Below, one piece after another: positions 16,266-41,476 of a stretch of 64,000 nucleotides of DNA; the first letter of the stretch is position 1; each line of letters begins with the position of its first letter. Position numbers and translations under genes: made by a program. Source of the stretch: Planococcus shenhongbingii (GTDB lineage Bacteria > Bacillota > Bacilli > Bacillales_A > Planococcaceae); the NCBI RefSeq assembly GCF_030413635.1, contig NZ_CP129235.1, forward strand, positions 2,108,001-2,172,000, read 5' to 3'. The notes beneath the pieces are model-generated. The model saw only the letters and a program-made list of their open reading frames with translations, was not told where the DNA came from and ran no database searches.

Positions 16266-17771
16266 TTAAACTTTTTCAGCCACTTCAGTTTTCACATATT
16301 GGGCAGCCTGTTCACCCGCAATTTTTCCAAATACAGCCCCCGCCATCAATCCTGCGCCGCCTGGGTAATTATCGTAGAACAATCCCCCAGCCGCTTCACC
16401 GGCAGCATACAAACCGTTGATCTTCTGGTACGTCGTGTTTTGGACTTCTGCCTGTTCGTTGATTTTCAATCCGCCGAATGTGAACGTGATGCCGCAAGTT
16501 ACGGCATAGGCTTCAAACGGAGCAGTGTCGATGCGGTTCGCCCAATTGGTCTTAGGCACCTCAAGCCCTTCCGTTCCCCGGCCGTCTTTTTCGTTCGGAT
16601 TAAACGGCACTGCTTCATCGATTGCTGCATTGTACTCAGCAATTTCCTTGAGGAATTTTTCTTTATTGACGCCTTCCATTTTAGCGGCTAGTTCTTCAAG
16701 CGAGTTCGCTTTCACCTTGGTCACTTGTTTGCCTTTATACTCTTCGCGCAGCAAATGAGAAACTTTGCCGTCGAAGATCTGCCAAGCGCAATTGTCTTTT
16801 TGTTCCAAGATCAAGCGGCCGTATTTGGCATACGTATAATTCCGGAAATCGGCGCCTTCATCCAAGAAGCGCTGGCCGTCCGTATTAACTAAGATGCCGA
16901 AAGGATAGCTCAGCCGCTGGAAACCCTCTTGAAAATCAGGCAAGTAACGGTCTCCCGTCACGGCATGCGCCATCGACCAGTTGCCAGCTGACAGCGCGCC
17001 GATATCCAAAGCCATCTGGATGCCTTCACCCGTATTGTAGCGGCTGCCCCGCGTATGGACAACATCCCATTTAGGACCGAGGTATTTGGTGCGCATTTCA
17101 ACATTGGCATGGAAACCACCGGAAGCCATGACAACTGCTTTTGCACGGATGATTTTGCTGCGCCCTTGTTCTTTCACTTTGACGCCTTGAATCCCGTCGT
17201 CATCTTGCAGCAATTTAACGGCCATCGTGTCGTATAAGATTCGTACGCCTTGGCGTGTTGCTTCGTTATGAAGCGCTTCAACCAATCCATGGCCGCCGCC
17301 GACTGATTCCAGGATCATGCCGCCCCAAAACTTGAAAATGCCATTGATTTTAAAAGCTTGCCGGCCGTAAATGGGAATGAAATTAATGTGGTGCTGTGTC
17401 AGCCACTTCATCGTTTCAAAACTTTCACCCGTTAGAATCGAAGCTAATTCAGGATCAGTCTTGTAATTAGTCATGCGGCAAAGGTCTTCATAATACTGCT
17501 CTTCACTATAACTTCCGAAATCCGTCATACGGAGATCCTCTTCTTCAAGATCCGGGATGATCGCCTGTATGTCTTCTGTTCCGTTATACGCAAAACGAAT
17601 CGAACCATGGGTGTATGTGGTATTGCCGCCTTTTTCTTTTTCAGGCGACTTTTCAAGGACCATGACGCGCGCACCTTGTTCCTGCGCAGCCAGAGCTGCA
17701 CACATCGCCGCGTTGCCGGCACCTATAATCACCACATCCGTTTCATATTGGTACTCTGTTCTGGACTCCAT
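16266..17771 (-). CDS. FAD-dependent dehydrogenase, TcuA/fumarate reductase-like
   Basis: About 501 residues. The N-terminal Rossmann motif DVVIIGAGNAAMCAALAAQ and VLEK bind FAD; GGNTTYTHGS is the substrate-loop pattern of TcuA-like proteins. The C-terminus has ITFTFGGLKIN, GLYAAGEAAGG and PGGAGLMAG. The fold is that of fumarate reductase flavoproteins, tricarballylate dehydrogenase, 3-ketosteroid and 4-oxocyclohexanecarboxylate desaturases. In a meta-cleavage operon a ring-desaturating role is the most sensible inference. It is last in operon A, directly after the hydrolase. ATG at 17771 follows GGGAAGTGG; an ATG at 17786 is also possible. Confidence 0.8.
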   Translation of the reverse strand: MESRTEYQYETDVVIIGAGNAAMCAALAAQEQGARVMVLEKSPEKEKGGNTTYTHGSIRFAYNGTEDIQAIIPDLEEEDLRMTDFGSYSEEQYYEDLCRMTNYKTDPELASILTGESFETMKWLTQHHINFIPIYGRQAFKINGIFKFWGGMILESVGGGHGLVEALHNEATRQGVRILYDTMAVKLLQDDDGIQGVKVKEQGRSKIIRAKAVVMASGGFHANVEMRTKYLGPKWDVVHTRGSRYNTGEGIQMALDIGALSAGNWSMAHAVTGDRYLPDFQEGFQRLSYPFGILVNTDGQRFLDEGADFRNYTYAKYGRLILEQKDNCAWQIFDGKVSHLLREEYKGKQVTKVKANSLEELAAKMEGVNKEKFLKEIAEYNAAIDEAVPFNPNEKDGRGTEGLEVPKTNWANRIDTAPFEAYAVTCGITFTFGGLKINEQAEVQNTTYQKINGLYAAGEAAGGLFYDNYPGGAGLMAGAVFGKIAGEQAAQYVKTEVAEKV

Positions 17772-17789
17772 ATGGCCACTTCCCATTGC

Positions 17790-18641
17790 TTATATTTTCT
17801 TTTTGAAGAATGATTGGATGAGTTCATGGAAACTGTCTTTCTTCTCAAGCTGCGCCCAATGGCCGCATTGCCCGAAAACATGCAGCTGTGCATTTTTCAA
17901 ATGCTGGGCCAAATAATAACTTGACTCGACTGAGCAAACTTTATCGTTCAAGCCATGGACCAAAAGCACTTCGTTCTCGATGCGGTTCAGCGCCACAACC
18001 GGCACCGGAACAGCAGCTGTGGAGAAAATCGAATCGTTTGAGCGGTGCACTTCCGGCTGCATCGCTGTGTCAAAGCGGACATCCAGAATGCTGTCGATGA
18101 CCGGCTGCATCGCTTTTTCGTCATAAACAAACCAGCTCATAATCTGCTTTAATTTCTTTTTGGAAGGATTGTCATAAAACCCTTTCGCGCGCGCCAGTTC
18201 AAAACTCAATTTGGTATTAGGCGTGCCTCCAGGACCCATCAGCACCACTTGATCAAAACGTTCCGGGTATTCCAGCAATAATTCAATAGCGATTGAACAG
18301 CCAAGTGAATTGCCGACCACATGCACTTTTTCAAGTTTCAAATGGTCCAGCAGTTCAATTGTCTGCTTGACCCATTGATCCGTCCATTGCTGGCGATTTT
18401 TCAGCGGTACGTCGGGATGGCTGCTTTTGCCAAAACCGTATAGATCCGGCGCTAAGCAATGAAAGTTTTCTCCCACTTCTTCAAGCGCTCTCCGCCAATT
18501 GGCGAAAGCTGTCACTCCTGGACCTGAACCGTGCAAGAACAAAATCGTCTCCGTGTTCTGTTCGCCTGAACGGTTTAAATAAGTAGCAAAATTCTCTGTT
18601 TGAACAATTTCCTGTGTCACGGTATTTGTCAATAAAGTCAT
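17790..18641 (-). CDS. Meta-cleavage product hydrolase (alpha/beta fold)
   Basis: 283 residues, the size of BphD/HsaD/MhpC. Oxyanion loop LHGSGPGVTAFANW, nucleophile Ser in VVGNSLGCSIA, acid Asp in LVHGLNDKV and His in CGHWAQLE are all in order. Such enzymes cleave the C-C bond of the ring-fission product of an extradiol dioxygenase, giving 2-hydroxypenta-2,4-dienoate and a carboxylic acid. The substrate side chain is unknown. Paralogue of 37960-38817 (shared HGSGPG, GNSLG and CGHWAQ). Separated from the upstream dioxygenase by a structured repeat. Confidence 0.87.
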   Translation of the reverse strand: MTLLTNTVTQEIVQTENFATYLNRSGEQNTETILFLHGSGPGVTAFANWRRALEEVGENFHCLAPDLYGFGKSSHPDVPLKNRQQWTDQWVKQTIELLDHLKLEKVHVVGNSLGCSIAIELLLEYPERFDQVVLMGPGGTPNTKLSFELARAKGFYDNPSKKKLKQIMSWFVYDEKAMQPVIDSILDVRFDTAMQPEVHRSNDSIFSTAAVPVPVVALNRIENEVLLVHGLNDKVCSVESSYYLAQHLKNAQLHVFGQCGHWAQLEKKDSFHELIQSFFKKKI

Positions 18642-18700
18642 TTTTTTGCCCCTTTCTATTGTCGATATAAATTGAAATTAAGAATTATCCTTTTATATAA

Positions 18701-18871: not shown

Positions 18872-18955
18872 AAAAGAGAGAGAATTACTTAGATAGCTTT
18901 TTGATGATTTCTCTCTTAAAAGGGTTGAATCAAGGTTTAGCTTGTAACATTTTCT

Positions 18956-19909
18956 TTACAATGCCTCAATCGTCTCTTTTACAAGCTCTTTGTTTGTGAT
19001 GCTGTCGCCCCAATACGTATTGCCGAAAGCACGTTCACTTTCATGCCAATGGATTGGCTCCCAGTCAGGTTCGAATATCAAATAACTGCCCGTGAACAAT
19101 TCTACGCGGCAGCCGCTGCCTGGATCCGTTACATATAAGTACAGGGCTTGGGAAATGGAATGTTTTCCAGGACCCACGAATTCAAAATTATGTTCCCGCA
19201 GAATATCAGCTGCGCGCAGAATATCCTGTGAGTCGTCCAGCCAGTAAGAGATATGGTGCAGACGCGCTTTCGTCGGAGTTTCCGGCCGTGAAACGAGCGC
19301 CACGTCGTGCACTAATTGCGTAACGCTCATCCAGCCAGCCAGTACATCTCCCGCATCGTTCGCTAAAAACTCACGCATTTTAAACCCGAGTATATTTTCC
19401 ATAAAGGAATAAGTGTCGGATGAATCTGCCGAAGTATGGAGATTGACGTGATCCAGCCGGCGAGGCGACACCCCTTTTGCCCAGGATTTATACGTCTGAT
19501 TTTTCAGTACGGAACGGCGATGCTCATCCACCGGCGGCCGCTCCACATCATAGTAAAAGTGGAAGGTATGGCCGCTTGGCACTTGAAATGCAATGGATGC
19601 TCCGATGCCCGGCGTTTTCCAGGCTTCTACATCGCTTGCTGCCACACCGTTCGTTTCCAGAAGCTCTTTAAAGCCTTGGACGTCCTCTTTTTTCTTGGTG
19701 CGCCAGCCGATATGCTTTACATAGCCGCGGTCCCCTTGTTCAATGGACAAGGTATGATGCTGAAAGTCTCCCCATGCCCGCAAATAATGGACCCCGTCTT
19801 TTTCTTCAGTTTCTTCCAAACCGATTACGTCTTTGAAGAATATCAGCGACTTTTCCAAATCGGCCGATACCAATGAAATATAACCCAGTTTTGCAATTTC
19901 AGGTTTCAC
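18956..19909 (-). CDS. Extradiol catechol dioxygenase A (VOC family)
   Basis: 317 residues with two VOC modules. The catalytic C-terminal module holds the Fe(II) ligands His (RRLDHVNLH), His (LHHISYW) and Glu (CRVELFTG), plus a conserved Tyr. It opens a catechol ring next to the hydroxyls with O2. Closely similar to the products of 30638-31591 and 35681-36634 (all begin PEIAKLG and share GVHYLRAWGDF and YLIFEPDWEP). The start is a GTG at 19909 with AAAGGAGG upstream; a TTG at 19930 precedes that site. A cre-like site lies just upstream. Confidence 0.9.
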   Translation of the reverse strand: MKPEIAKLGYISLVSADLEKSLIFFKDVIGLEETEEKDGVHYLRAWGDFQHHTLSIEQGDRGYVKHIGWRTKKKEDVQGFKELLETNGVAASDVEAWKTPGIGASIAFQVPSGHTFHFYYDVERPPVDEHRRSVLKNQTYKSWAKGVSPRRLDHVNLHTSADSSDTYSFMENILGFKMREFLANDAGDVLAGWMSVTQLVHDVALVSRPETPTKARLHHISYWLDDSQDILRAADILREHNFEFVGPGKHSISQALYLYVTDPGSGCRVELFTGSYLIFEPDWEPIHWHESERAFGNTYWGDSITNKELVKETIEAL

Positions 19910-19937
19910 CGTAAAACCTCCTTTAACCAATTGTTTT

Positions 19938-19962: not shown

Positions 19963-21165
19963 TTAATAACGGATTGCATTCGATTCGAGCCCTGCCAATA
20001 CCCGTCCGAAGTTTTCTTTTGTAATGATCGGCGATAAAGAACGGTGAGAGTGCAAAACCAGAAAATCGAGCAGGATTCGCTGCATTGGATGTCCGTTATA
20101 CGCAAAACCGGATCCACTTGCTGACATCAGTAAATCCATCGCTTCTTTCAACAATTGATTGGCATAGCCGATATCCGCTAACGTTTTCACGCGAGCATGG
20201 CGGCCCATGTATTCTTTTGCTTGTGCGCTGGCATCCAAATCATCTGCGACTTTAAAGTAGAACATCTCTGCCGTTTCAATTTTCAATTCCGCTTCCGCTA
20301 TAATGGAGTGTGTGCTTGCCGCATCTTTAATAAATTCGACACCCATATGTGCTGCTCGTCGATTCGGCAAACCTTGTTTGAAAAATTCCATTGCTGAACG
20401 CAGCATTCCCACTCCTGGCAAACCAAGCGACAAAATCAATGCCGGGAAAAGCGCTGTATGATAAAGCGGAATATCACGCAAATGGGCAGATTCAAAATTC
20501 CCGTCAAGCGCTTTGACGAACGATGTACAGCGGTGATCTGGAACAAAGACATTATGCATTTTCACACTATTGCTGCCTGTTCCTTTCAAGCCCATTACAT
20601 TCCAGTCATCCATGATTTCCATTTCGCTGAATGGAAGCGTCATCAACACCTGGTCAACCATCTTGCCTTCGTCATTTAGGATTGGCATGCCGAAATATCC
20701 CCATGTGGCGTGTTGAGATCCTGAGCAGAACATCCAGAACCCTTCTTCTATCAAATAGCCGCCGTCCACTTTTTTGGCGATGCATTTGCGCGGTTCGTAA
20801 ACTCCTGCAAAAAGCACATCGTCTTCATCTTGCCCGAATATTTCTTTATGCGTTTTCTCACTGAATGACTCGGCCACCATCAATTCACGTATGGCACACA
20901 GTGCCACGATCCAGCCAGTAGACCCACAGCCTTTTGAAATCTCAACAATTGCTTCACTGTAAGTACGCATATTCTGTTCCTGCCCGCCATAGCGTTTAGG
21001 GCGAAGCATTTTAAACAATCCCAATGCTTTCAATTCATTCATCGTCGCTTCAGGAATACGGCCGATTTCATCCGTTTCTTTTGCGCGTTCTCTCAAAGAC
21101 GGAATCAGCGATTTTGCCGCTGCTACCACGTCGACTTTGCTTTCATGTTGGATTACAGGATTCAT
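19963..21165 (-). CDS. Flavin-dependent monooxygenase A, acyl-CoA dehydrogenase fold (HsaA/HpaB-like)
   Basis: 400 residues. RIPEATMNELKALGLFKMLRP and PKRYGG mark the acyl-CoA dehydrogenase fold; MDDWNVMGLKGTGSNSVKM is typical of group D oxygenases such as HsaA and p-hydroxyphenylacetate hydroxylase C2. There is no catalytic base Glu motif of true acyl-CoA dehydrogenases. It would use reduced flavin from a partner reductase (gene at 35172) and O2 to add an ortho hydroxyl to a phenol. Paralogue of 36700-37893. First gene of operon A. ATG at 21165 follows AGAGGAGTGG. Confidence 0.85.
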   Translation of the reverse strand: MNPVIQHESKVDVVAAAKSLIPSLRERAKETDEIGRIPEATMNELKALGLFKMLRPKRYGGQEQNMRTYSEAIVEISKGCGSTGWIVALCAIRELMVAESFSEKTHKEIFGQDEDDVLFAGVYEPRKCIAKKVDGGYLIEEGFWMFCSGSQHATWGYFGMPILNDEGKMVDQVLMTLPFSEMEIMDDWNVMGLKGTGSNSVKMHNVFVPDHRCTSFVKALDGNFESAHLRDIPLYHTALFPALILSLGLPGVGMLRSAMEFFKQGLPNRRAAHMGVEFIKDAASTHSIIAEAELKIETAEMFYFKVADDLDASAQAKEYMGRHARVKTLADIGYANQLLKEAMDLLMSASGSGFAYNGHPMQRILLDFLVLHSHRSLSPIITKENFGRVLAGLESNAIRY

Positions 21166-21386
21166 ATTCGTTCCACTCCTCTGCATCATTTTCTTTCTAT
21201 ACTCAATTTAAAGAAATTTCAGAATTAATTAAAGATGAAAAACCATTCGATTTCCGTACTTTTTCCAATAAAAACTATTAGTTTTTTTCTTAAGAATCTT
21301 CTTTTCTATCATTTTTCCGTTAATTCTTTTTAATAAATGCGTATGAGCAGTAGGAAATTGAATTTAATTGGAGTCATTGTGTGCAC

Positions 21387-21984: not shown

Positions 21985-23817
21985 CTATACATCAATATCG
22001 CCGAGAATTTTCAATGCGTCCAGCATCAGCAGAAGCTCATAGGCCACAGCTGGGTTGCGCAAATCTTTGTCCAGCAATTTTTCAATGCGCGTGATGCGGT
22101 ACATCAGCCCGCTCATCGACAGAGATAAATCGCTGATCGATTGTTGAAGGTTTCCGCCATTCAGCAAGAACACATACAGCGTCTTTAACAATTCGTCTCG
22201 CTTATGGTCTTTCAGTTCGAAAATTGGATTTAATTCTTTTTTGGCGATGCGCCGGATGGTCAGCATGTTTTTTGAATTGATCAACGAACCGATGATGCTG
22301 ACTTCTTCAAAAGACGCGATTTTATCGGCTGTATTCAAGCGCAGCGCAACTCTTGATTCTTCAAGCCCTTCATCGATCGTCTCGATGGTTTCATGCTGGC
22401 TGCTCATGCCAACTTGAAAAGCAATATGGCGGTGTTCATGGCTTAAATGCTTAAGGATATTTTCCAGCATATAGTTGAGCCGGTCCACTTTCGGCAGCAG
22501 CATGACAATCGAACCTTCGTATTCGGTAATCAGAATCTTATAACTTTGCATTTCCAAATACCGCGTGATCGACTGGATGATTTGGTCGAGGAGCTCTACT
22601 TTTGTGACGTCCAGATGTTCAGATATGCATTTTAAACTGGCAATGAAAAACGGCTCTTTCAAATCGATGCCCATATAGTATCCTCGGTAGACAATGCTTG
22701 GAACTGAGGAATACTGCTTTTGTAGTAATTGCTCAAAGAAGTAGGCTTTGATGTTTTCCACCGCTTCCAAGCTGGTTTTTTCATTCAAAAAGTAAAGAGC
22801 TGCTGAAGTTGCTGCGCGCTGGATAAACATCGTTTCATTTTCCGCTTCGGCATCTTTGTCCAAATAGAAAAAAGTGATATAGCCGATCGGCTTTTTCTGG
22901 ACGATAATCGGCGACACAAGCCGCTTATGGACCTTCCCCCGGATCACAAAGGTCTTATCATATGATGAATAAAGGATTTTACCGCTTTTAGTTTTATTGA
23001 TGGAGTTCAAGAAATCTTCACTGAAAACCTTATACTGGATCTCATCGATTCCCCGGTACACTCTCGGATGGAAATTCAAATCTTCAATCGAGACCGGAAT
23101 ATTCAAAGCTTCATAAATGGTGCTGATCATCTCTTCAATTGAGTCGCCATCGGATAATCTTGTCGTCAGCGTTTCATGGAAGGCAGATGCTTTTTCGATG
23201 AAATTTTTACGGTCGAGCAATTGTTCATACGTATAATTGAGTTCATCGATAAACCGGCTTTCCTGGTACAACTGGATTTCTTCTTTCATATCCTCATTGT
23301 CCCAATCCTCTTCCAGCTTCATTTCAAACGTGCACGTGGCATCCCCTTTGCCTCGGCATTCTATTTCCCGGAGAAAGACGCGGCGGCCAGTAATCGTTGA
23401 AGTGAAACCGCTCCCAAAACCTGTCAGCGTATGGCAGACTGGGCAATCTGATATCCCGTGGTTTTTAACATGTTCAGCCACTTCGAAGGAATCCACCCAT
23501 TCCCCTTTTGCCGAAATTCTTTCCACTTCCCCGTGTTCATCCACAATCACTTCCCGCTTGGATATCAGCTCGGATATCTGGCCGGTTTCATAATGCAGTG
23601 CTCCGGCTTTTTCCAGCATTTCTTCGGTCGTGCCGCCGACTTTCAGCACATCTATTGCATGGGCTTTCCCCAGATTCCAACCATATCGAAGCAAAAATGA
23701 TTTTGCGCGCTGAACTCCCAGGTTTTCAATCAACTCTTTTCTTAATAACCCGAAAGTGGCAGAAGTCGTCGAGATTTTTTTATCTTCACTTTGATCAAAT
23801 GTTTCCAGTTTTCTCAT
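21985..23817 (-). CDS. Aromatic-sensing regulator: XylR-N/V4R domain plus PucR-type HTH
   Basis: 610 residues. Residues about 15-190 are the XylR_N/V4R sensor of phenol-responsive activators. The zinc ligands of the PoxR/MopR type are present with exact spacing: Cys (second of CPVC), 23 residues to Glu, then E-x2-C-x7-C in EIECRGKGDATC. The middle (about 230-370) looks like a GAF-type region. The C-terminus (LLNGGNLQQSISDLSLSMSG, then YRITRIEKLL) is a PucR helix-turn-helix. The sigma-54 AAA+ module of XylR/DmpR is absent. Probable activator of the surrounding catabolic operons. ATG at 23817 with AAGGGGGA. Confidence 0.85.
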   Translation of the reverse strand: MRKLETFDQSEDKKISTTSATFGLLRKELIENLGVQRAKSFLLRYGWNLGKAHAIDVLKVGGTTEEMLEKAGALHYETGQISELISKREVIVDEHGEVERISAKGEWVDSFEVAEHVKNHGISDCPVCHTLTGFGSGFTSTITGRRVFLREIECRGKGDATCTFEMKLEEDWDNEDMKEEIQLYQESRFIDELNYTYEQLLDRKNFIEKASAFHETLTTRLSDGDSIEEMISTIYEALNIPVSIEDLNFHPRVYRGIDEIQYKVFSEDFLNSINKTKSGKILYSSYDKTFVIRGKVHKRLVSPIIVQKKPIGYITFFYLDKDAEAENETMFIQRAATSAALYFLNEKTSLEAVENIKAYFFEQLLQKQYSSVPSIVYRGYYMGIDLKEPFFIASLKCISEHLDVTKVELLDQIIQSITRYLEMQSYKILITEYEGSIVMLLPKVDRLNYMLENILKHLSHEHRHIAFQVGMSSQHETIETIDEGLEESRVALRLNTADKIASFEEVSIIGSLINSKNMLTIRRIAKKELNPIFELKDHKRDELLKTLYVFLLNGGNLQQSISDLSLSMSGLMYRITRIEKLLDKDLRNPAVAYELLLMLDALKILGDIDV

Positions 23818-23972
23818 GAAAATCCCCCTTGTAGCCATAGTGGTCTCTAAGAACAAAACTCCAGAACTTTTTCCCATCCCTTTTCGCAAAGCATAATAAA
23901 TAAATGCTTATACGAATTATACGAAATATTTAGATATAATTCTCATTTATTTTTTTGACAGAGGCACATAAC

Positions 23973-24013: not shown

Positions 24014-24862
24014 TCAGATATTGACGCCCGCTTTAACAGATAGGCCGTAATCCAGGCCGGCATGAATATCGCTTTCCTGGTTGTAGAACGCACGCAGTTT
24101 TTTCACTGCGTCTTCTGGCGGCTTTGCATTGAAATACCCTTTGCGGGTAAGCGTTACGCCTGAATTCACTTTAAGGTCTGTTAAGCTTTCACACATCTTG
24201 ATTCCCGCTGCAAAAGAATCCACAACCGGCACATCGCCGATCCGGGAAATCCCATGTGCAGCTAAAAAGACATTCAATGGCCCTTCGCCAGGTACGATCA
24301 CATCAGCGCCAAGAGCGATTGCTTTCTCCGCACTTGCGATAAAGCTGTCGATGACCGGCTGGGGATTTTCAAAGCCTGCCAGTACATCGTAGAAACCGAT
24401 GGAAGTCTGGACGATCGGCCCTAATTTATTGCCAAGGCCGTAGCGTTCCGCATTGCTGCGCAATTGATCCGCCAGCGGCTCCAGGAAATTAACGATGCCG
24501 ATGCGGTCCCCGAGCATGGAGGCAATATGGAAAGAAGCCTGCCCATATCCAATCACCGGAATATCAACCAATGTCCGTGCCTCAAGCAAACCGACATCCG
24601 GAATAGTGCCGATAAACATACAATCGTAGCCGGCGCTTTCCGCAATTAACGCATTGCGGATAAATTGCTCTTTATGCAAGTTCTGCAAATAAGCATAAGT
24701 GATAAAATGGCCTGGATAATCGCTCGGATACGTTTCACTTGCCATGCCGTGAAGCACAACTTCCACATCCGGCCGTGCCACTTTCTGGATGTGGCTGATG
24801 ACCGCATCCCGATAAGCCGGCACTTGTTCAATAGACGTCAAACTCTGATGCCAAATTTTCAA
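24014..24862 (-). CDS. Asp/Glu/hydantoin racemase-fold protein lacking catalytic cysteines
   Basis: 282 residues. The fold is suggested by MKIWHQSLTSIEQ, the central GYGQASFHIASMLGDRIGIV and VIVPGEGPLNVFLAAHG. In active racemases and maleate isomerase each half supplies a Cys; here the first spot reads MFIGTIPDVG and the second PGEGPLN, so both are replaced. A two-base racemase mechanism is therefore unlikely. It may be a decarboxylase, isomerase or hydrolase acting on a ring-derived acid. Last gene of operon B. Start ATG at 24862 lies 14 bases after the preceding stop. Confidence 0.7.
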   Translation of the reverse strand: MKIWHQSLTSIEQVPAYRDAVISHIQKVARPDVEVVLHGMASETYPSDYPGHFITYAYLQNLHKEQFIRNALIAESAGYDCMFIGTIPDVGLLEARTLVDIPVIGYGQASFHIASMLGDRIGIVNFLEPLADQLRSNAERYGLGNKLGPIVQTSIGFYDVLAGFENPQPVIDSFIASAEKAIALGADVIVPGEGPLNVFLAAHGISRIGDVPVVDSFAAGIKMCESLTDLKVNSGVTLTRKGYFNAKPPEDAVKKLRAFYNQESDIHAGLDYGLSVKAGVNI

Positions 24863-26261: not shown

Positions 26262-26711
26262 TTACACTACCTTTGAAGTCAATTCGCTTAACACTTCTAA
26301 AGCCGCTTCGCATACTTGCATATCATGAGAGTAATGGCCGCCGCTGACACCGATGCCGCCAATCAATTCATCGTTGATTTTGATTGGATAACCGCCACCG
26401 AAAATCACTAGACGCTCTGTATGGACCAAGCCATGCAAAAGGGGTGGATCGTCTTTCAAACGGTCGTACCATTCATGAGTGGCACGGTTATACGTTGCTG
26501 CAGAGAACGCTTTGTTCTGTGCAATATCCAGGCTCAATACAGGTGCATTGTCCATTGCCGAAAAAGCTTTCAAGTTACCGACACGGTCCACGATGGCGAT
26601 GCTGAACGGTATGCCCATTTCCTTGCCTTTTTCTGCTGCTGCTTCCAGTAATTTTGTGGCTAATGCCAGGCTAATGTTTTTCGACTCGATTGCTGTGATG
26701 AATTCGCTAAT
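26262..26711 (-). CDS. GlcG/HbpS-family heme-binding-like protein, probable ATT start
   Basis: About 150 residues. Motifs: SLALATKLLEAAAEKGKE, PFSIAIVDRVGNLKAF, ALSLDIAQNKAFSA-like, and GGYPIKINDELIGGIGVSGG, all typical of the GlcG/HbpS family, found beside many catabolic oxidoreductases and sometimes binding heme. The first ATG (26618) would remove the conserved first helix. The frame upstream is open to a TAG at 26718-26720 and has no ATG, GTG or TTG. AAAAGGGG at 26721-26728 is nine bases before ATT at 26711, which I take as start; ATT at 26717 is closer. Confidence 0.7.
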   Translation of the reverse strand: MSEFITAIESKNISLALATKLLEAAAEKGKEMGIPFSIAIVDRVGNLKAFSAMDNAPVLSLDIAQNKAFSAATYNRATHEWYDRLKDDPPLLHGLVHTERLVIFGGGYPIKINDELIGGIGVSGGHYSHDMQVCEAALEVLSELTSKVV

Positions 26712-26732
26712 TTTAATCTACCCCTTTTAGTT

Positions 26733-27467: not shown

Positions 27468-27485
27468 ATGCTTCACCTCCTTATG

Positions 27486-29800: not shown

Positions 29801-29817
29801 CCAACCATCCTTTGTCA

Positions 29818-33490: not shown

Positions 33491-34369
33491 CTACACTTCA
33501 GCGGCTGCAAGCTGTTTCGCAAATTCGTTTGCTACTTTGGCCGCGGCTGCTGTCATAATATCCAGATTTCCTGAGTAAGGCGGGAAGAAATCGCCTGCCC
33601 CTTCCACTTCTAAAAAGACCGATACTTTCCGGCCATCGAATTGCGGAGTTCCGCGCAAGCGGTAGCCCGGCACGTAGCTTTGCACGTCTTTCACCATGTC
33701 ATGAATCGAAGCGATAATGTCTTCTTCTTTTCCATCTTCAGCAATTAAGGCGTGAACTGTATCCCGCATAATAATCGGCGGTTCAGCTGGATTCAAAATG
33801 ATGATCGCTTTGCCTTTTTTGGCGCCGCCCACTTGTTCAATTGCTTTAGAAGTGGTGCGCGTGAACTCGTCAATATTGGCGCGGGTGCCCGGTCCAGCAC
33901 TTTTGCTTGAAACGGTCGCCACAATTTCAGCATATTCCACATCCACTACGCGGTTGATGGCGTTGACGATTGGAATCGTCGCCTGGCCGCCGCAAGTCAC
34001 CATATTCAAATTGGGCTCAGAAAAATGCTCATTTAAATTCACCGTCGGAACGGTAAACGGCCCGATTGCAGCCGGTGTCAAGTCGATGACTTTTTTGCCT
34101 GCCGCCACCAATAGCTCGCTATGGTGCTTATGTGCTTTAGCGGAAGTGGCGTCAAAGACGATATCAACCAAATCCAGGCGTTTCATCAAACCGTCAATGC
34201 CGTCTGCAACGACTGTATATCCACGGTCTGCTGCGCGTTTCAGTCCTTCCGATTCAGGGTCGATGCCGACCATAACACTCATTTCAAGCGCATCGCTGCG
34301 TTCGATTTTGTACATTAAATCAGTGCCGATATTACCGGAACCGATGATGCCCACCTTTAATTTTCTCAC
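33491..34369 (-). CDS. Acetaldehyde dehydrogenase (acetylating)
   Basis: 292 residues. NAD loop [20 protein letters not shown], catalytic Cys in [10 protein letters not shown], and [16 protein letters not shown] are diagnostic for DmpF/BphJ/MhpF/HsaG. It converts acetaldehyde, NAD+ and CoA to acetyl-CoA in a complex with the aldolase. Starts with a GTG that overlaps the hydratase stop by four bases. Confidence 0.94.
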
Positions 34370-35157
34370 ACTTTTTCACCTTCCCTTACAAACGAAATGG
34401 CGACTTCACCCAGTTCACTGAAATCGGCTTTAAACACATCATCCGCTTCAAACGGCACAGCTTTGGATAATGCACCGGCTAAGATGAAATAGCCAGCGCG
34501 CAGCGTAATGCCGTATTCCGCTACAGCATTGGCAAGCCAAGCCACCGCTTTTGCCGGATGGCCCATGACCGCTTCACCTTTAGCGGAATCAAATACTTCC
34601 CCGTTGCGGTAAACCGTCATTTCAACTGTAGCCAAATCCACAGCTGTTGGAGAAGTTCTCTTGCTTCCGAGAATCGCACCCGCTGATGATCCATTATCTG
34701 CTACGGTGTCTTCAAATTTGAACTGCCAGTTTTCAATGCGGCTGTCGATGATTTCAATTGCCGGCACGACGTAATCGGTGGCCGCCAAAACATCTTCTAC
34801 TGTTACGCCAGGACCTTCAAGATCTTCTTTGAGAATAAAAGCGATTTCGAATTCCACTTTCGGCTGGATAAATTGATCCATATTGACGGCTTTTTCTTCA
34901 CCGTAAACCATCGAATCAAGAACATGGCCATAATCAGGTGTTCTGACATTGAACATGTCCTGCATCACTTTGCTCGTCAAGCCGATTTTCAACCCTTTGA
35001 TTTCAGCTCCTTGCTGCAGCTTTTCCTGGATCTGCAGCAACTGGATCTGGTAAGCATCCTCAACGGAAATTTCTTCTGCTGAGGATGTAAAAGGAGGAAT
35101 CGGTGTTTTATCTTTTTCAGCTTGCGCCAAACGATTTGCTGCTTTTTGAATATCCAT
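34366..35157 (-). CDS. 2-keto-4-pentenoate hydratase
   Basis: 263 residues of the fumarylacetoacetase-like hydratase family (MhpD/BphH/HsaE). [27 protein letters not shown] (metal Glu residues), [12 protein letters not shown] and [16 protein letters not shown] are characteristic. It hydrates 2-hydroxypenta-2,4-dienoate to 4-hydroxy-2-oxovalerate. Strong AAGGAGG site; 14 bases after the flavin reductase gene and coupled to the acetaldehyde dehydrogenase. Confidence 0.93.
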
Positions 35158-35171: not shown

Positions 35172-35648
35172 TTACAAAACGGGTGTTTTCTCTGCTAAAG
35201 CATGGTATTGGCCGCTGAAGAAAATCAACGGATTGCCTTCTTCCAACCGGATATCCAGCACTTCACCAATCAATAATGTATGGTCTCCTTCGATATGTTC
35301 AGCGACCACTTTGCAGCTGACTTGTGCTAAAGCTTTAGGAACGACCGGAAGTCCGGCAAGTTCAGCAAACTCGATTTTACTGTCGTCTTTCATTTGACCG
35401 GCAAACATTCTTGAATAATTTTCCTGATCTGCTGCCAGTATATTTACTGCGAACTTTTGCGATACTTTTACTTTTTCCAAAAAGCGCGCTTTGTGTCCAA
35501 TTGAGACAACTACCAATTTCGGTGTTAATGAAACCGACATAAATGCATTGGCAGTCATTCCTGCTGGCTCGTTTTCAAATTCCGTTGTCAGTACCGTGAC
35601 TCCTGTTGTGAATTTTCCCATTGCGTCTCTAAATAAACGATCATCCAT
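35172..35648 (-). CDS. Flavin reductase (HsaB/HpaC-like)
   Basis: 158 residues of the flavin reductase-like domain: FRDAMGKFTTGVTVLTTE, GMTANAFMSVSLTPKLVVVS and GDHTLLIGEVLDI. It should supply reduced flavin to the acyl-CoA-dehydrogenase-fold monooxygenases at 36700 and 19963. It is the only such reductase visible, so both oxygenases may share it. 32 bases downstream of dioxygenase C. Confidence 0.9.
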   Translation of the reverse strand: MDDRLFRDAMGKFTTGVTVLTTEFENEPAGMTANAFMSVSLTPKLVVVSIGHKARFLEKVKVSQKFAVNILAADQENYSRMFAGQMKDDSKIEFAELAGLPVVPKALAQVSCKVVAEHIEGDHTLLIGEVLDIRLEEGNPLIFFSGQYHALAEKTPVL

Positions 35649-35680: not shown

Positions 35681-36634
35681 TTATGCTTTGATGGTTGGAT
35701 TATTTTCTGTTTTAGTATCCGTCTGGTCGCCCCAGTAAGTAAAGCCGATGTCCATTTCATCCAATGTCCAGACGATCGGTTCCCAGTCCGGTTCAAAAAT
35801 TAAGTAACCGTTCGTGAAGATTTCAACTCGGACACCGCTGCCCGGGTCAATGGCATAAATATACATTGCTTGCGAAATTCCATGCTTTCCTGGTCCGACG
35901 AAAAAGATGCCGTTCTCTTTCAAAATATCCGCTGCCCGCAGCAGGTCCTGTGCATTGTCCAGCCAATAGGAAATGTGGTGAACTTCATTTGTGGAAGCAG
36001 CATTTGGATCATGGCTGACTGCCACATCATGCACCAATGCCGTAACACTCAACCAGGCTGCAACCAAACTTCCGTCCGGTGCTTCTACGCATTCGCGCAT
36101 CTGGAATCCTAATTTGTCCATCAGGAAATCCGCCAGTTCGTTTGCCGGCAAGGATGACAACAAGTTGACGTGATCGATCCGGCGCGGGGAAACACCGCGT
36201 GCCCATGATTTATGTGTCTGATTTTTCAGCACCGAACGGCTCTTCGGATCCGCCAATGTCTTTTCCATTTCATAATAGATTTCCAATGTATGTCCGCTTG
36301 GCATTTTGAAACGGAACGCTTTGCCTTGTCCAGCTTCTATACCTTCTTCGTTCCACGTGATTGGTGTGCCCGACTCTTCCAGAATTTTCGCAAAACCTTC
36401 TACGTCTTCCGGTTTTTTCGTACGCCATGCAATATGGTCCAGCTTTGCTTCGTCGCCTTGACGAATGGTCAAGGTATGATGCTCAAAATCGCCCCATGCC
36501 CGGAGGTAATGCACTCCGTCTTTTTCTTCTGTTTCTTCAAGTCCTAAAACTTCTTTAAAGAACCACAGTGATTTTTCAAGATCTGTAGATACTAAACCAA
36601 AATGCCCTAATTTCGCGATTTCTGGAATTGCCAT
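35681..36634 (-). CDS. Extradiol catechol dioxygenase C (VOC family)
   Basis: 317 residues. Iron ligands His (RRIDHVNLL), His (VHHISYW) and Glu (VRVEIFTN). Compared with A and B it differs in several pocket segments, for example HVNLLSS instead of HVN[IL]HTS, and lacks the second His there. It may therefore prefer another catechol. Middle of operon C after monooxygenase C. GGGGGAAATTC before the ATG. Confidence 0.9.
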   Translation of the reverse strand: MAIPEIAKLGHFGLVSTDLEKSLWFFKEVLGLEETEEKDGVHYLRAWGDFEHHTLTIRQGDEAKLDHIAWRTKKPEDVEGFAKILEESGTPITWNEEGIEAGQGKAFRFKMPSGHTLEIYYEMEKTLADPKSRSVLKNQTHKSWARGVSPRRIDHVNLLSSLPANELADFLMDKLGFQMRECVEAPDGSLVAAWLSVTALVHDVAVSHDPNAASTNEVHHISYWLDNAQDLLRAADILKENGIFFVGPGKHGISQAMYIYAIDPGSGVRVEIFTNGYLIFEPDWEPIVWTLDEMDIGFTYWGDQTDTKTENNPTIKA

Positions 36635-36699: not shown

Positions 36700-37893
36700 T
36701 TAAACGAAATAAGTATTAGGCTCTTGTCCGCACATCACTCGTCCGTAAGTTTCGATCAAGCTGGATGGTGTGATGAAACCGTGCAGGTGCATCGACAGGA
36801 AATCGCGGTAGACCAGCTGGAACAAGTTGTTATTGTAAGAGAACACTGATCCAGCGGCTTCTGTCAGTATGTCGACCGCTTCTTTGCAGAGCTGATTAAC
36901 GTAGCCGAAATCCGCTTTCATGCGAATGCCTTCTTCCATCGTCAGCTCCAGCCCTCTCACTGAGTAATCATCGAGCATATCGACTGCCCGGTATAAGTGA
37001 AGTTCAGCAGAGTCGATTTTCAACTGTGCTTGCGCCACTTGCAGGTGGGTGATCGGCGCTTCGCTCATTTTGTTATAGAAGGTATTGCCGATTCCCGCTT
37101 TTCCGACGCGTTCCATGTGAAGGTCCAGCGCCGCCTGCGCCAAGCCTAAAGCCGGTGCGACGATTGACAAGGTCAATGATGGAACGAAAGGTGTTTGGTA
37201 AAGCGGGATATCTTTTAACGGTTCGATCATGTATTCGCCTTGTCTCGCCAAACGGTCTAGCGATACGCGGTGTTCCGGTAGGAAGACATTTTCCACTCGA
37301 ACACTATTGCTGCCTGATCCTTTTAATCCCATTACGTTCCAGTCATTGAGAACCGTCACTTCATGTCTTGGAAGCACCATGATCGCCATTTCCATTCCGC
37401 CGTTTTCATCAGCTACCGGGAATCCAAAGTAAAACCAGTCTGCATGCGGGCTTCCTGATACGAATGGCCACTGCGCTTCTTTAATGAAGTAGCCGCCATC
37501 CGCTTTTTCAATTTCACATTTAATGGGTTTAAAGTTCCCCGCCAAAATGACATCTTCTCCAGGCCCGAAGATTTCATCCAGCGCCTGCTGCCCGAATGCA
37601 TAAGAGATCATGTAATCGCGGATATTGCTCAATGACACAAACCAGCCGGCCGAACCGTTGCCCCGTGAAATTTCAGTTACCACTTCGGTGAATGTCCGCA
37701 TATTCGTCTGATGCCCTCCGAAGATTTCCGGACGAAGTACTTTTAATAAGCCATTTTTTTGAAGATCATGTACCAATTCATCCGGTATTGCACTGTTGCG
37801 GTCAATGTCAAAACTCAAGTCTCTCAATTTCGGAATCAACGCTGTGCCGTTTTCAACCAGTTGCTTTTTAATATCTGTCGCCATTTGAGTCAA
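36700..37893 (-). CDS. Flavin-dependent monooxygenase C, acyl-CoA dehydrogenase fold (HsaA/HpaB-like)
   Basis: About 397 residues; paralogue of 19963-21165. IPDELVHDLQKNGLLKVLRPE, GNGSAGWFVSL and LNDWNVMGLKGSGSNSVRVE are shared with it. Expected to hydroxylate a phenol with reduced flavin from the reductase in the same operon. Start taken as TTG at 37893, eight bases after AAGGGGTG; an ATG follows at 37884 and an ATG at 37914 precedes the site. Confidence 0.83.
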   Translation of the reverse strand: MTQMATDIKKQLVENGTALIPKLRDLSFDIDRNSAIPDELVHDLQKNGLLKVLRPEIFGGHQTNMRTFTEVVTEISRGNGSAGWFVSLSNIRDYMISYAFGQQALDEIFGPGEDVILAGNFKPIKCEIEKADGGYFIKEAQWPFVSGSPHADWFYFGFPVADENGGMEMAIMVLPRHEVTVLNDWNVMGLKGSGSNSVRVENVFLPEHRVSLDRLARQGEYMIEPLKDIPLYQTPFVPSLTLSIVAPALGLAQAALDLHMERVGKAGIGNTFYNKMSEAPITHLQVAQAQLKIDSAELHLYRAVDMLDDYSVRGLELTMEEGIRMKADFGYVNQLCKEAVDILTEAAGSVFSYNNNLFQLVYRDFLSMHLHGFITPSSLIETYGRVMCGQEPNTYFV

Positions 37894-37959
37894 TATAGCC
37901 ACACCCCTTATCATTTTTTATCTATTTCTGTCATTTGACTGGCTGTTCGATAATATTGA

Positions 37960-38817
37960 TTAAATCTTGTTCAGTACTTTATTGCGGTCAAAGAAGTCAT
38001 GAGTCAATTTAACAAATTGCTCTTTCTGCTCGATTTGTGCCCAGTGCCCGCAGCGTTTGAAAACATGCAGTTCGGCGTTTTCCAGATAATCCATCACATA
38101 CAGGCTGCTCGCTAATGGAACAAAACGGTCCTGGTGGCCGTGGATCAAAAGGAATTCATGCTTCATGCGTTTCAAGGCAGATGGCGGGACGAGCATATCT
38201 GATAATTGCGTGTTCTTGAAGTTTGCTTCATAAGATCTAAGAACTTCCGGACGGTTAAACATTTCCATGCGCTGTTCCACAATGGCATCTAATTTATCTT
38301 CCATGCCGGTCGTGTCATAAAGGAACCAGCTCAACAAGTTGCGCAGCGATTTCGCTGTCGGGTCTTTATGGAAATTCGCCAGTTTGCTGAGTTCCGGAGT
38401 CGGTTCAGTCAATCCGCCGCCTGCTCCCATCAATACGATGCGGTCAAAGCGGGCTGGCGTATCCATCGCAAGGAATAAGGAAATGACGCCGCCAAGTGAG
38501 TTTCCGACCAAATGCGCTGTTCCGACATTTAAGCTGTCCATCAAGTTCAACACTTGTTCGATTCGCAAGTTCATCCATTGAACACCATTCGACGGATATT
38601 CTATCGGATGATCCGTCTCGCCAAACCCAACAAGATCCGGTGCCACTACATGATAGTCGTTGGCATAATGCGCCAGCACATCCTGCCAGTTCGAGCTGGC
38701 ACTTGCACCCGGGCCGCTGCCGTGAAGGAAGAGGATCGTTTCGCTGTTGCCCACTCCACCTTCATGGATCAATGTTTCGTATGTTCCTGTTTTCACTTTG
38801 CGTGTCGTAATCGGCAT
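37960..38817 (-). CDS. Meta-cleavage product hydrolase C (alpha/beta fold)
   Basis: 285 residues. LHGSGPGASASSNW, nucleophile Ser in VGNSLGGVIS, acid in HGHQDRFV, and RCGHWAQIE His. More canonical than the operon A homologue (GNSLGG versus GNSLGC). First gene of operon C, with the ribosome site AAAGGAG and a perfect 14-base palindrome 20 bases before its ATG. Releases 2-hydroxypentadienoate for the hydratase of the same operon. Confidence 0.9.
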   Translation of the reverse strand: MPITTRKVKTGTYETLIHEGGVGNSETILFLHGSGPGASASSNWQDVLAHYANDYHVVAPDLVGFGETDHPIEYPSNGVQWMNLRIEQVLNLMDSLNVGTAHLVGNSLGGVISLFLAMDTPARFDRIVLMGAGGGLTEPTPELSKLANFHKDPTAKSLRNLLSWFLYDTTGMEDKLDAIVEQRMEMFNRPEVLRSYEANFKNTQLSDMLVPPSALKRMKHEFLLIHGHQDRFVPLASSLYVMDYLENAELHVFKRCGHWAQIEQKEQFVKLTHDFFDRNKVLNKI

Positions 38818-38918: not shown

Positions 38919-38930
38919 CTAATATTTTAG
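38919..38930. promoter_or_regulatory. Degenerate copy of the GntR palindrome
   Basis: CTAATATTTTAG, one mismatch to the CTAAAATTTTAG core. It is followed by TATAGCTAAA, about 100 bases upstream of the operon C start. Confidence 0.35.
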
Positions 38931-39204: not shown

Positions 39205-39840
39205 TTAGACATTCACTTGCTTGTATTTTTCGGTAATAAATTGCGCAACTCGCATCAAATGCTTTCTCACTAAAAGTTCCGTCAGCTTTGTATCCCGGTC
39301 TTTCAATGCGTAGTAAATCATCCGGTGTTCTGCTTGGGATTGTTCACGGTTGCCGCCTTGGAACAATTCTTCCGAGATATTGACGTAGTTCAAATAATCC
39401 CAATTGATTTTATTCGACCGAAAAGCAAAATCGTTGTTTGCCGCTTTGCAGATGACAGTGTGGAATTGCACATTCAAGGCTTCATATTTATCGGCTGCCA
39501 AGCTGGGATTTTCCATTCTTTCAAGCACTTCTTTCAGCTCTTCCAGCTGAAATTCACTAACTGAACGAGCTGCCTGCTCGGCAAGAAACACATCAATGGC
39601 CAAACATAATTGCAGCCGGTCAAAGATTTCCTTTTGATCAGGCCGCCGGACAAACACACCCACTTGCGGTGTAATCGTGATATACCCTTCCCGTTCCAAT
39701 TGTGCCAACGCTTTGTGGACCGGAGTCCGGCTCATGTTCATCTGCGCTGCCAGTTCATTAATGCTGATCGATTCCTGCATGGTGAATCTTCCTTGGACAA
39801 TCATATTCTTGATGTTCTTATAAGCTTGTTCTTCTTTCAT
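39205..39840 (-). CDS. GntR/FadR-family transcriptional regulator
   Basis: 211 residues. N-terminal winged helix with INELAAQMNMSRTPVHKALAQLEREGY; C-terminal all-helical FCD domain with DVFLAEQAA, NVQFHTVICKAAN and EHRMIYYALKDRD, which hold the usual metal/ligand His residues. Probably represses operon C and itself, released by a pathway acid. The ATG at 39840 has GGAGGGGT in front; the 66 extra codons upstream in frame are not part of the protein. Divergent from the MmgE/PrpD gene. Confidence 0.88.
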   Translation of the reverse strand: MKEEQAYKNIKNMIVQGRFTMQESISINELAAQMNMSRTPVHKALAQLEREGYITITPQVGVFVRRPDQKEIFDRLQLCLAIDVFLAEQAARSVSEFQLEELKEVLERMENPSLAADKYEALNVQFHTVICKAANNDFAFRSNKINWDYLNYVNISEELFQGGNREQSQAEHRMIYYALKDRDTKLTELLVRKHLMRVAQFITEKYKQVNV

Positions 39841-39862
39841 AAAAACCCCTCCGCTTTTCCAA

Positions 39863-39876
39863 GCTAAAATTTTAGT
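39863..39876. promoter_or_regulatory. Putative GntR operator before its own gene
   Basis: GCTAAAATTTTAGT, with palindromic core CTAAAATTTTAG, 23 bases upstream of the GntR start codon. Suggests autoregulation. Confidence 0.65.
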
Positions 39877-40135
39877 CTGGCTGAATTCCTTAAAAACATA
39901 ATTTTCAGACATCGTATTCGAACTATAATGGAGAGCTGTTTCTTTTGTCAATATCTCATGTATCCGGACTCTTGCGGCTTCATCAAAAAATTGCAAAATG
40001 AAGAACGGTTCCTCTACGTGGCCGTTCTTTAATTTCATTGAGTTTAAATTATCCGTTAGATGATTCTTTCAATAAAACCATTGTCCAGAAGTTTCCTTAA
40101 GGTTAGTATGGAACTACTATTTGGAAAAGGAAGTG

Positions 40136-41476
40136 ATGGATTTGCCACTAAGCATGGAATTGGTCCAAGCGATCCGCGTTCGCCAAAACAACGGGTTGCC
40201 TGAAGAAATCCTGGAGAAAGCAAGGTTGCATATTAAAGATACTGTCGCGATTTCACTTGCCGCCTATAAAAGAGCGCCCATCGCCAGGCAAGCGATTGCC
40301 GCTTTATCCATAGGCACATCAGGCTCCGCCAAAGTGATTGGCAGCTCTCTCCGCCTTCCGCCTGGCCACGCGGCTTTTTCCAATACCGCTTTGGCCCATG
40401 CGCTGGATTTTGATGACATCAACGATTTGTCCAGAATCCATCCGACTCCCGTGACGTTGGCTGCGGCAATAGCAGCGGCTGATATTGGAAAATCGCCAGC
40501 CGTCGATCTGGTGACAGCTGTGGCCCTTGGAAATGAAATCTTGTGCCGAATGGGCCGCGCGGTTGAACCGAAAGGCATCGGTGCCGATGCAAACTGGTTC
40601 TTGAGCCAGCTTTTTGGATATTTTGGTGCAGCCATCACCGCTGGACTCGTTCTCGGATTGAGCGATGAGGAGCTTGTACACGCTATCGGACTTGCTTATA
40701 TGCAGGCAGCAGGAGGAAAAGAAGCCGGCGTCGGTACTGGTTCCCAGGCCAGGTCGATTTATCCGGCCTTTGCTTCGATGGGAGGCGTTCAAGCCGCCTT
40801 ATTGGCCAGCCAAGGAGTGACGGCTCCAGCAAGCAGTTTGGACGGGCCGACAGGATTTTTCCCAATTTATTTCGGCCAGAATCTGGACGTCCATCAGCGG
40901 GAAATTTTGCTCGATACGGACAGCTGGACTTTTTCCGACACGTCCATCAAGCTTTTCCCCAGCTGCCGCTATTCCCATCCCTTTATCAAATCCGCTTTGA
41001 TTCTCCGGGACAAAATGGACTTGAGTGAAATTAAAAAGATTGTCATCGGCGTCAATGAAACTGCCGCTATGCTTTGCCGCCCTTTAGCCGATCGCTGCCG
41101 CCCACGGACATTGCAGGACGCCAAGTTCAGCATTCCGTTCATGGTGGCTTTCACTTTTGTCCATGGCCGGGTGGATTTAAACAACCTGACTGAAAAAGCC
41201 CTGGACGATCCGGAAGTTTTGCAGCTGGCGGCTTTAATCGAAGTGGAACCGACACAACACGATGCCCCGGGTTTGCCGCCAGGCGATATCCGCGTGTTTT
41301 CAGAAGCACAAGAGCATCAATACACGCATATCCTTGGCCCTGAAACTGTTGTCGATGAAGTGAAGGATAAATTCATTCAATGCTGCAAGTATGCTGGTAT
41401 CGCAGCACCGGATATTTTATGGGAGAAACTTTCCCGCCAGATGGATTATGGGTTAGTAAATGCTTGTATTATATAA
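40136..41476 (+). CDS. MmgE/PrpD-family protein
   Basis: About 446 residues. LEKARLHIKDTVAISLAA, AFSNTALAHALDFDDIND, THPTP-like IHPTPVTLAAA, and KLFPSCRYSHPFI match the MmgE/PrpD family (2-methylcitrate dehydratase, cis-aconitate decarboxylase, and many uncharacterised members). The conserved HALDFDD catalytic loop is intact. Presumably dehydrates or isomerises an organic acid of the pathway. The only plus-strand gene of the region, divergent from gntR. Start uncertain: ATG 40136, TTG 40142 or ATG 40154 behind AAAAGGAAG. Confidence 0.8.
   Translation: MDLPLSMELVQAIRVRQNNGLPEEILEKARLHIKDTVAISLAAYKRAPIARQAIAALSIGTSGSAKVIGSSLRLPPGHAAFSNTALAHALDFDDINDLSRIHPTPVTLAAAIAAADIGKSPAVDLVTAVALGNEILCRMGRAVEPKGIGADANWFLSQLFGYFGAAITAGLVLGLSDEELVHAIGLAYMQAAGGKEAGVGTGSQARSIYPAFASMGGVQAALLASQGVTAPASSLDGPTGFFPIYFGQNLDVHQREILLDTDSWTFSDTSIKLFPSCRYSHPFIKSALILRDKMDLSEIKKIVIGVNETAAMLCRPLADRCRPRTLQDAKFSIPFMVAFTFVHGRVDLNNLTEKALDDPEVLQLAALIEVEPTQHDAPGLPPGDIRVFSEAQEHQYTHILGPETVVDEVKDKFIQCCKYAGIAAPDILWEKLSRQMDYGLVNACII

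Follow-up and report, generated by a model that had tools for sequence, protein, structure and literature searches.

Which compound is degraded by a gene block in which enzymes for meta-cleavage of aromatic rings stand beside three FAD flavoproteins and a short-chain dehydrogenase/reductase (SDR)? This question is raised by a ~25-kb block of 22 genes at 16266-41476 of the window, i.e. the whole 64,000-nucleotide stretch of Planococcus shenhongbingii DNA analyzed here (2108001-2172000 of G000:C1, a 3.98-Mb chromosome). Genes were assigned by hmmscan against NCBIfam and Pfam models, and the NCBIfam scan covered the 30 window proteins between 11.5 and 50.8 kb; gene labels are those of Table 1. 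The block combines a meta-cleavage supercluster with an uncharacterized but conserved module linked to electron transfer flavoprotein (ETF). Tentatively, and with a confidence somewhat short of even, we explain it as two coupled parts, a meta-pathway for a phenol and an ETF-linked flavoprotein module that prepares a carboxylated alicyclic compound for it.

The ring-cleavage half and its FAD supply

The ring-cleavage half of the block is textbook chemistry. A preliminary description of the locus had listed three extradiol dioxygenases, one flavin reductase and two HsaA-like hydroxylases, a pair of C-C hydrolases, a set of hydratase, aldolase and acetaldehyde dehydrogenase and, beside these, three FAD flavoproteins and an SDR, and hmmscan placed all of them in the block; its inventory was incomplete in that a FAD synthetase, an isocitrate lyase (ICL)-type lyase, a racemase-fold protein, an HbpS-like protein, PrpD and the V4R/PucR and GntR regulators had been overlooked. 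Specifically, the dioxygenases A2, B1 and C3, which are 58–72% identical to each other, have in common the stretches RR(L/I)DHVN, HHISYW and RVE(L/I)FT, which we take to hold the iron ligands, one Glu and two His; A2 was aligned with solved enzymes, and by motif all three proteins have the ligand set of type I extradiol dioxygenases. For catechol 2,3-dioxygenase, a published report names H153, H214 and E265 (PMC3943285). All three dioxygenases score under the cut-off of 320.2 bits of the catechol 2,3-dioxygenase model TIGR03211 (277, 280 and 305 bits), and an ad hoc extradiol pattern in PROSITE style did not match any of them. Identity is 39% between the two hydroxylases and 42% between the two C-C hydrolases, and both hydrolases contain GNSLG. 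In the lower pathway, the aldolase and the acetaldehyde dehydrogenase lie above and the hydratase below their curated cut-offs (Table 1). These motifs and scores bear out the meta-cleavage pathway of the preliminary description. Neither hydroxymuconic semialdehyde dehydrogenase nor tautomerase was found among the 30 scanned proteins and, therefore, we expect the hydrolytic branch to be used. A Rieske oxygenase was likewise not found among these proteins, in agreement with the proposed entry through a phenol, and we also counted the phenol-sensor-type regulator within the block in favor of a phenol.

Based on family membership and motifs, the following chemistry is well supported as a prediction. 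The HsaA-like enzymes, fed by the flavin reductase, would convert a phenol to a catechol, the type I extradiol dioxygenases would open the catechol, and the C-C hydrolases would yield an acid and 2-hydroxypenta-2,4-dienoate, which the hydratase, aldolase and acetaldehyde dehydrogenase would convert to pyruvate and acetyl-CoA. The stand-alone FAD synthetase may provide FAD. Of the four PF06574 proteins encoded by the genome, one is long (331-aa frame) and three are short, and all of the short proteins lie within meta-cleavage clusters whose genes resemble those for hydroxylase, reductase, dioxygenase, hydrolase and hydratase, namely the present block and, by BLAST similarity, two others. Because each short FAD synthetase sits in such a cluster, a dedicated FAD supply seems to be a standing feature of meta-cleavage clusters in this strain. 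The other two clusters are at ~699000-709000 (L097) and 3674600-3684400 (L098) of G000:C1; both have a stand-alone FAD synthetase of their own, a flavin reductase, and genes that resemble those for a hydroxylase and a V4R-type regulator.

Two known systems invite comparison with this half of the block. The hsa pathway for steroid A/B rings uses a flavin hydroxylase, reductase, extradiol dioxygenase, C-C hydrolase, hydratase, aldolase and dehydrogenase, i.e. the same order of chemistry, and the HsaA-, HsaB- and HsaD-type family resemblance of the present enzymes would suit steroid degradation with KstD-like flavoproteins. However, the present proteins score far below the equivalog cut-offs (HsaA, 234/207 vs 450; HsaB, 104 vs 230; HsaC, 50/50/37 vs 450; HsaD, 188/198 vs 400 bits), the dioxygenases belong to the type of catechol 2,3-dioxygenase, and the flavoproteins A4, B4 and B7 were rejected as KstD at 78–194 bits against curated equivalog cut-offs of 788–793. 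We give a steroid substrate next to no credence. Closer by taxonomy, the phe operon of Geobacillus stearothermophilus is likewise a meta-pathway from Bacillales and, as far as the accessible part of its description goes, encodes a two-component phenol hydroxylase, extradiol dioxygenase, hydratase, aldolase and acetaldehyde dehydrogenase, with the gene for a 642-aa regulator inside (PMC2590616). According to the same part of that source, tautomerase, decarboxylase and ferredoxin genes are features of phe, whereas the TcuA-clade flavoprotein, SDR, lyase, racemase-fold protein and FAD synthetase of the present block were not seen in it (PMC2590616).

Distribution of the block and of the module

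The preliminary description had called the arrangement unfamiliar for Planococcaceae; on the contrary, it is common in Planococcaceae and Bacillaceae. Among 46 genomes of the genus (G000-G045, including the window's own; G046 represents another genus), six have the block intact and collinear (the window's own, G006, G045, G036, G038 and G012). Its collinearity in five genomes besides the window's own shows that the block is not a chance assembly. PrpD is encoded beside it in three of the six (own, G006 and G045). In G049, the block genes are split over two contigs, and all that remains in G029 is the final two thirds of tcuA1 plus part of the GntR gene. At G029:C62:261259-262516, the end of tcuA1 is directly followed by the GntR fragment, which appears as the scar of a large deletion. 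TcuA2 of Planococcus glaciei is 96% identical to that of the window.

A scan of contigs with TcuA2 yielded 33 loci, 30 of them in Bacillales and three in Pseudonocardia. Of note, the presence of TcuA2 at these loci is by selection and that of the other genes is not; the Bacillales counts are lower bounds, each stretch comprising at most 21.4 kb, and four of the 30 Bacillales loci (L041, L042, L043 and L062) apparently overlap genomes of the genus survey (G006, G038, G012 and G049). At a threshold of at least 40% identity and at least half coverage, a core of six genes emerged: TcuA2, SDR, the HbpS-like protein, B7 and B8 in 30/30 loci and the lyase in 29/30 (30/30 if no threshold is applied). 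FAD synthetase is encoded at 26 of the 30 loci, EtfB and EtfA at 20 and PrpD at six. A hydroxylase, dioxygenase or hydrolase at least 55% identical lies within the stretch at 25/30 loci. Among the other five, a 76%-identical dioxygenase lies ~10–30 kb from the core in L053 (checked to be on the same contig) and in L056 and L060 (judged by coordinates), and the L053 stretch has hydroxylase, dioxygenase, reductase, hydratase and hydrolase genes; the remaining two are L062, from the genome in which the block is split, and L054, which stems from a metagenome bin and has dioxygenase matches of only 34–36%. Apart from weak SDR matches at two of them, TcuA2 is all that the three Pseudonocardia loci have in common with the block. 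Searches with B7 in 398 Bacilli (two matches, the window genome and G049) and with B8 in 398 Bacillota (one match, the window genome) gave too few matches for context statistics. In 396 genomes of the Pseudonocardia phylum, B7 had no match at 1e-130, with four candidates scored per genome and no positive for control.

The module also recurs outside Bacilli. On a plasmid of Variovorax sp. PBL-E5, one stretch encodes, among best matches, PrpD (49%), TcuA1 (46%), TcuA2 (46%), SDR (34%), B8 (44%) and B7 (44%), together with EtfBA, an isochorismatase-family protein and tripartite tricarboxylate transporter (TTT) binding proteins, and has no annotated ring-cleavage gene in 36.8 kb. More distantly, ~14 kb of Rhizobium gallicum encode an ICL-type lyase (44%), a FAD protein, an SDR (35%), B7 (38%), B8 (30%), another SDR, and TauD and PrpD-like proteins (25%). 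From these two loci, we conclude that the module exists apart from the meta-pathway. The module attached to the ring-cleavage genes is not textbook: its conserved flavoproteins recur in Bacillales, Variovorax and, more distantly, Rhizobium, together with an SDR, a PrpD-like protein and a protein that has the racemase fold but not the catalytic Cys. A literature search identified no recognized description of the module and no assigned substrate, which is not proof that they are unpublished.

These loci also bear on the alternative that the block holds two independent pathways, one for meta-cleavage of a phenol and one for carboxylate dehydrogenation, co-inherited for ecological reasons alone. 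Consistent with it, the Variovorax and Rhizobium modules lack nearby ring-cleavage genes, and regulators and gene units are separate in the window. Against it, tcuA1 lies within a hydroxylase/hydrolase unit in Planococcus and Neobacillus, and in the same two genera a dioxygenase or hydroxylase gene together with the FAD synthetase gene heads the module unit. We consider independence improbable.

Transporter genes vary among the Bacillales loci. Pfam identifies a TRAP DctM-type protein in L054 and, in L044, an MFS protein; further transporters bear labels that we presume from resemblance alone, i.e. TRAP-like (L042 and L046), Opp-like ABC (L053, L056 and L060) and additional MFS-like genes. Upstream of the Opp-like genes of L053 and L060 (Neobacillus drentensis), tcuA1 is present as a broken copy, and the L053 genome has an open copy a few kb further (L101).

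Role of the flavoproteins and the racemase-fold protein

The three flavoproteins differ in family. A4 (TcuA1) exceeds the cut-off of the TcuA model NF006130 (560 bits; cut-off 369), and B4 (TcuA2; 346 bits) and B7 (198 bits) do not; none of the three reaches the second TcuA model TIGR02485 (270, 199 and 112 bits; cut-off 372.55). For the flavocytochrome c model TIGR01813 (cut-off 285.45), B7 passes (294 bits) and A4 (201) and B4 (160) fail. In addition to passing NF006130, A4 shares Tyr positions with TcuA of the TcuA/TcuB system, but it fails TIGR02485, is 37% identical to TcuB-linked TcuA and has two insertions; a TcuB partner was not found among the 30 scanned proteins, and many relatives are accompanied by ETF.

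The flavoproteins probably act as dehydrogenases because ETF genes adjoin the core in 20/30 Bacillales loci and in Variovorax; an Fe-S/CCG protein in a Mesobacillus locus was also counted for this direction. That protein of 704 aa is encoded between the SDR and PrpD genes (L067, 12392-14506) and is a candidate ETF:quinone oxidoreductase of the module. In the window genome, the single ETF-alpha match lies outside the block, at 1504467. We also considered that the flavoproteins could be reductases of the urocanate/fumarate type, as, among solved structures, B7 is closest in sequence to urocanate and fumarate reductases. In FccA, Arg402 is catalytic and His504 and Arg544 bind carboxylate; in the alignment, B7 has Tyr, Leu and Tyr at these positions, respectively, and A4 and B4 likewise lack the two Arg. 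On this basis, we rejected membership of B7 in these reductases; moreover, no cytochrome or FMN domain was matched in B7 by Pfam, and the frequent adjoining of ETF genes also speaks against reduction, making this alternative very improbable. Tyr297 and Tyr451 are invariant across 11 B7-clade proteins, and this Tyr pair argues against fumarate-reductase chemistry without discriminating a ring ketone from an acyclic acid. The pair was dropped as proof of ketone chemistry because TcuA proteins adjoining TcuB have it too. An alignment yardstick annotated as KstD (L122) did not display the expected Tyr and is, therefore, a weak test of KstD residues.

The preliminary description had also likened the flavoproteins to KstD and ChcC, and had suggested comparison with the hsa and chc clusters. 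In chc aromatization of cyclohexanecarboxylate, an SDR and FAD desaturases feed an aromatic pathway. This idea resembles our proposal, and a B7 relative in Citricoccus lies in the order P450, FAD oxidoreductase, ferredoxin, SDR, two MFS pieces, B7. However, A4, B4 and B7 score 97–157 bits against cut-offs of 1000 and 900 for ChcC1 and ChcC2 and were rejected as such, and as the KstD and ChcC cut-offs are missed by far and TcuA1 passes one TcuA cut-off, with relatives adjoining aliphatic-carboxylate genes, the likeness is not supported. The broader claim of the preliminary description, that desaturase-type flavoproteins aromatize an alicyclic substrate, survives in part: a dehydrogenase role is probable in view of ETF, and aromatization is plausible for B7 and perhaps TcuA2, but is not favored for TcuA1.

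Genomic context further distinguishes the flavoproteins. We viewed eight loci from 11 plasmid records with a B7 relative. A ring-cleavage dioxygenase is nearby in four (V. boronicumulans, Sagittula, Rhodococcus X5 with a LigB domain, and Rhodococcus djl-6 with an extradiol dioxygenase by annotation only), an SDR in seven (all but V. boronicumulans, where the candidate is an F420-oxidoreductase-like protein), and an ICL/PEP-mutase protein in four (Citricoccus, V. paradoxus, Sagittula and R. gallicum). We counted the ring-cleavage and SDR genes as favoring B7 as a ring enzyme. TcuA1 relatives differ: none of the four loci viewed has an annotated ring-cleavage gene, and three have aliphatic-carboxylate genes (Hydrogenophaga, LeuCD and PrpF; Bradyrhizobium, ETF and a CoA ester lyase; Paracoccus, PrpD and PrpF; none of these in Ruegeria). 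For TcuA2 relatives, a 2,5-dihydroxypyridine dioxygenase lies within 6 kb in one of three loci viewed.

We therefore weighed a second possibility, in which the substrate is phenolic from the outset and TcuA1, TcuA2, B7, PrpD, the ICL-type lyase, the SDR and B8 together degrade a branched acid released by the C-C hydrolases, with no aromatization. Passage of TcuA1 over one TcuA cut-off, the PrpD, PrpF, LeuCD, CoA ester lyase or TTT proteins with its relatives in 3/4 loci, the TTT binding proteins of the Variovorax module and its lack of a ring-cleavage gene nearby, the TRAP DctM protein in one Bacillales locus, and the lyase motif KKCGH kept in B3 would all suit this possibility; B3 itself remains below the methylisocitrate lyase (PrpB) model TIGR02317 (291 vs 354.4 bits). 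However, an acyclic product hardly explains why B7 relatives lie near two further types of ring-cleavage enzymes (gentisate-like, and LigB or annotated extradiol) in half of the loci viewed. We regard purely downstream action as possible but not probable.

B8 has T86 and E193 at the positions of the two catalytic Cys of Asp/Glu racemases, and both residues are invariant in 36 aligned sequences, the window's included. Thus, B8 has the fold of the superfamily and lacks both Cys, unlike allantoin/hydantoin racemases, and structure comparison yields its fold, not its function. B8 adjoins B7 in Bacillales, Variovorax and Rhizobium. Public records name several module members tricarballylate dehydrogenase or hydantoin/allantoin racemase, which may mislead.

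Taken together, we favor a split role of the ETF-linked module in preparing the phenol. The SDR would form a ring ketone, and B7, probably with TcuA2, would make the phenol by desaturating the carboxylated alicyclic ring; the carboxylate side chain or released acid would be processed by TcuA1, PrpD and the ICL-type lyase, possibly from a substituted succinate via a fumarate and a hydroxy acid to C-C cleavage. B8, next to B7, would be a non-racemase, perhaps an isomerase or decarboxylase. Several observations weigh against this proposal. The gentisate-dioxygenase-like cupins near B7 relatives score below the cut-off in V. boronicumulans (202 vs 442 bits; there with a 3-hydroxybenzoate-6-monooxygenase-like protein, 374 vs 459, and FAH) and Sagittula (265 vs 442; with FAH); four of the eight loci (PBL-E5, Citricoccus, V. 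paradoxus and R. gallicum, the last unannotated and partly scanned) have no recognized ring-cleavage gene nearby; the sample of eight is small and has no matched control; no P450 was found among the 30 scanned window proteins; and the Tyr pair also occurs in TcuA proteins beside TcuB.

A more specific version, which we consider doubtful, is that B7 and the T86/E193 enzyme jointly turn the carboxylated alicyclic compound into a phenol in an ETF-linked manner, for instance by decarboxylating or tautomerizing a dienone carboxylate, and that the dedicated extradiol enzymes then open its ring, in an undescribed aerobic route that would be widespread among soil Bacillales and present in part in Proteobacteria. 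Should B7 convert alicyclic acids to phenols, an uncredited carbon source would be gained for a large group of soil bacilli, and the active site of B8 would represent new chemistry within an old fold.

Gene layout and intergenic features

Based on gene spacing, units A, B and C (C from 38817 to 32465, B from 31591 to 24014 and A from 21189 to 16266, all on the minus strand) would each be a single transcript. The V4R/XylR_N/PucR regulator gene lies between units B and A, and the GntR regulator gene and the divergent PrpD gene at the head of the block.

Table 1 Features of the block in window coordinates, with the scores, domains or motifs used for assignment
Feature	Coordinates	Strand	Basis
A4 (TcuA1), TcuA-clade FAD dehydrogenase 1, 506 aa	16266..17786	-	NF006130 560 bits; TIGR02485 270 bits
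A3, C-C (meta-cleavage product) hydrolase, HsaD/BphD-like	17790..18641	-	profile scans; GNSLG
A2, type I extradiol dioxygenase	18956..19930	-	C23O model 277 bits vs cut-off 320; ligand motifs
A1, HsaA-like flavin-dependent phenol hydroxylase	19963..21189	-	HsaA model 234 bits vs cut-off 450
V4R + XylR_N + PucR-HTH regulator, phenol-sensor architecture	21985..23889	-	PF06505, PF02830, PF13556; MobR-like
B8, Asp/Glu-racemase-fold protein, both catalytic Cys replaced (T86, E193)	24014..24862	-	PF01177; fold comparison
B7, flavocytochrome-c-clade FAD dehydrogenase, Tyr at FccA R402 and R544 positions	24877..26256	-	TIGR01813 294 bits vs 285
B6, HbpS/GlcG-like protein	26262..26618	-	PF03928; true start probably upstream
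B5, SDR oxidoreductase	26733..27476	-	NCBIfam scan
B4 (TcuA2), TcuA-clade FAD dehydrogenase 2	27486..28907	-	NF006130 346 bits vs cut-off 369
B3, ICL/PEP-mutase superfamily C-C lyase	28904..29818	-	family scans; KKCGH
B2, stand-alone FAD synthetase	29818..30618	-	PF06574; GLHKGH; riboflavin kinase domain unmatched
B1, type I extradiol dioxygenase	30638..31591	-	profile scan; ligand motifs
C7, 4-hydroxy-2-oxovalerate aldolase	32465..33478	-	TIGR03217 500 bits vs cut-off 286
C6, acetaldehyde dehydrogenase (acylating)	33491..34369	-	TIGR03215 470 bits vs cut-off 282
C5, 2-oxopent-4-enoate hydratase-like	34366..35157	-	TIGR03220 296 bits vs cut-off 409
C4, flavin reductase	35172..35648	-	PF01613
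C3, type I extradiol dioxygenase	35681..36634	-	profile scan; ligand motifs
C2, HsaA-like phenol hydroxylase	36700..37914	-	profile scans
C1, C-C hydrolase	37960..38817	-	profile scan; GNSLG
GntR/FCD regulator	39205..40038	-	Pfam
D, MmgE/PrpD family protein	40121..41476	+	PF03972, PF19305

The start of B7 is better placed at ~26256 than at the listed ATG 26313 because the latter sits within the preceding gene and the shorter frames of several homologues fit the inner Met. The frame of the HbpS-like gene (26262-26735) is open for 33 codons 5' of its first ATG, with no ATG, GTG or TTG among them, and the frames at other loci are longer; a rare start codon is possible. An Rfam scan of the 64 kb gave no riboswitch or other RNA match at the gathering threshold. 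Finally, intergenic repeats of ~200 bases that are 77–82% alike lie at 18669-18875 and 21355-21560, with inverted pieces near 32034-32248 and 41541-41597, and occupy part of the wide gaps within and before unit A.

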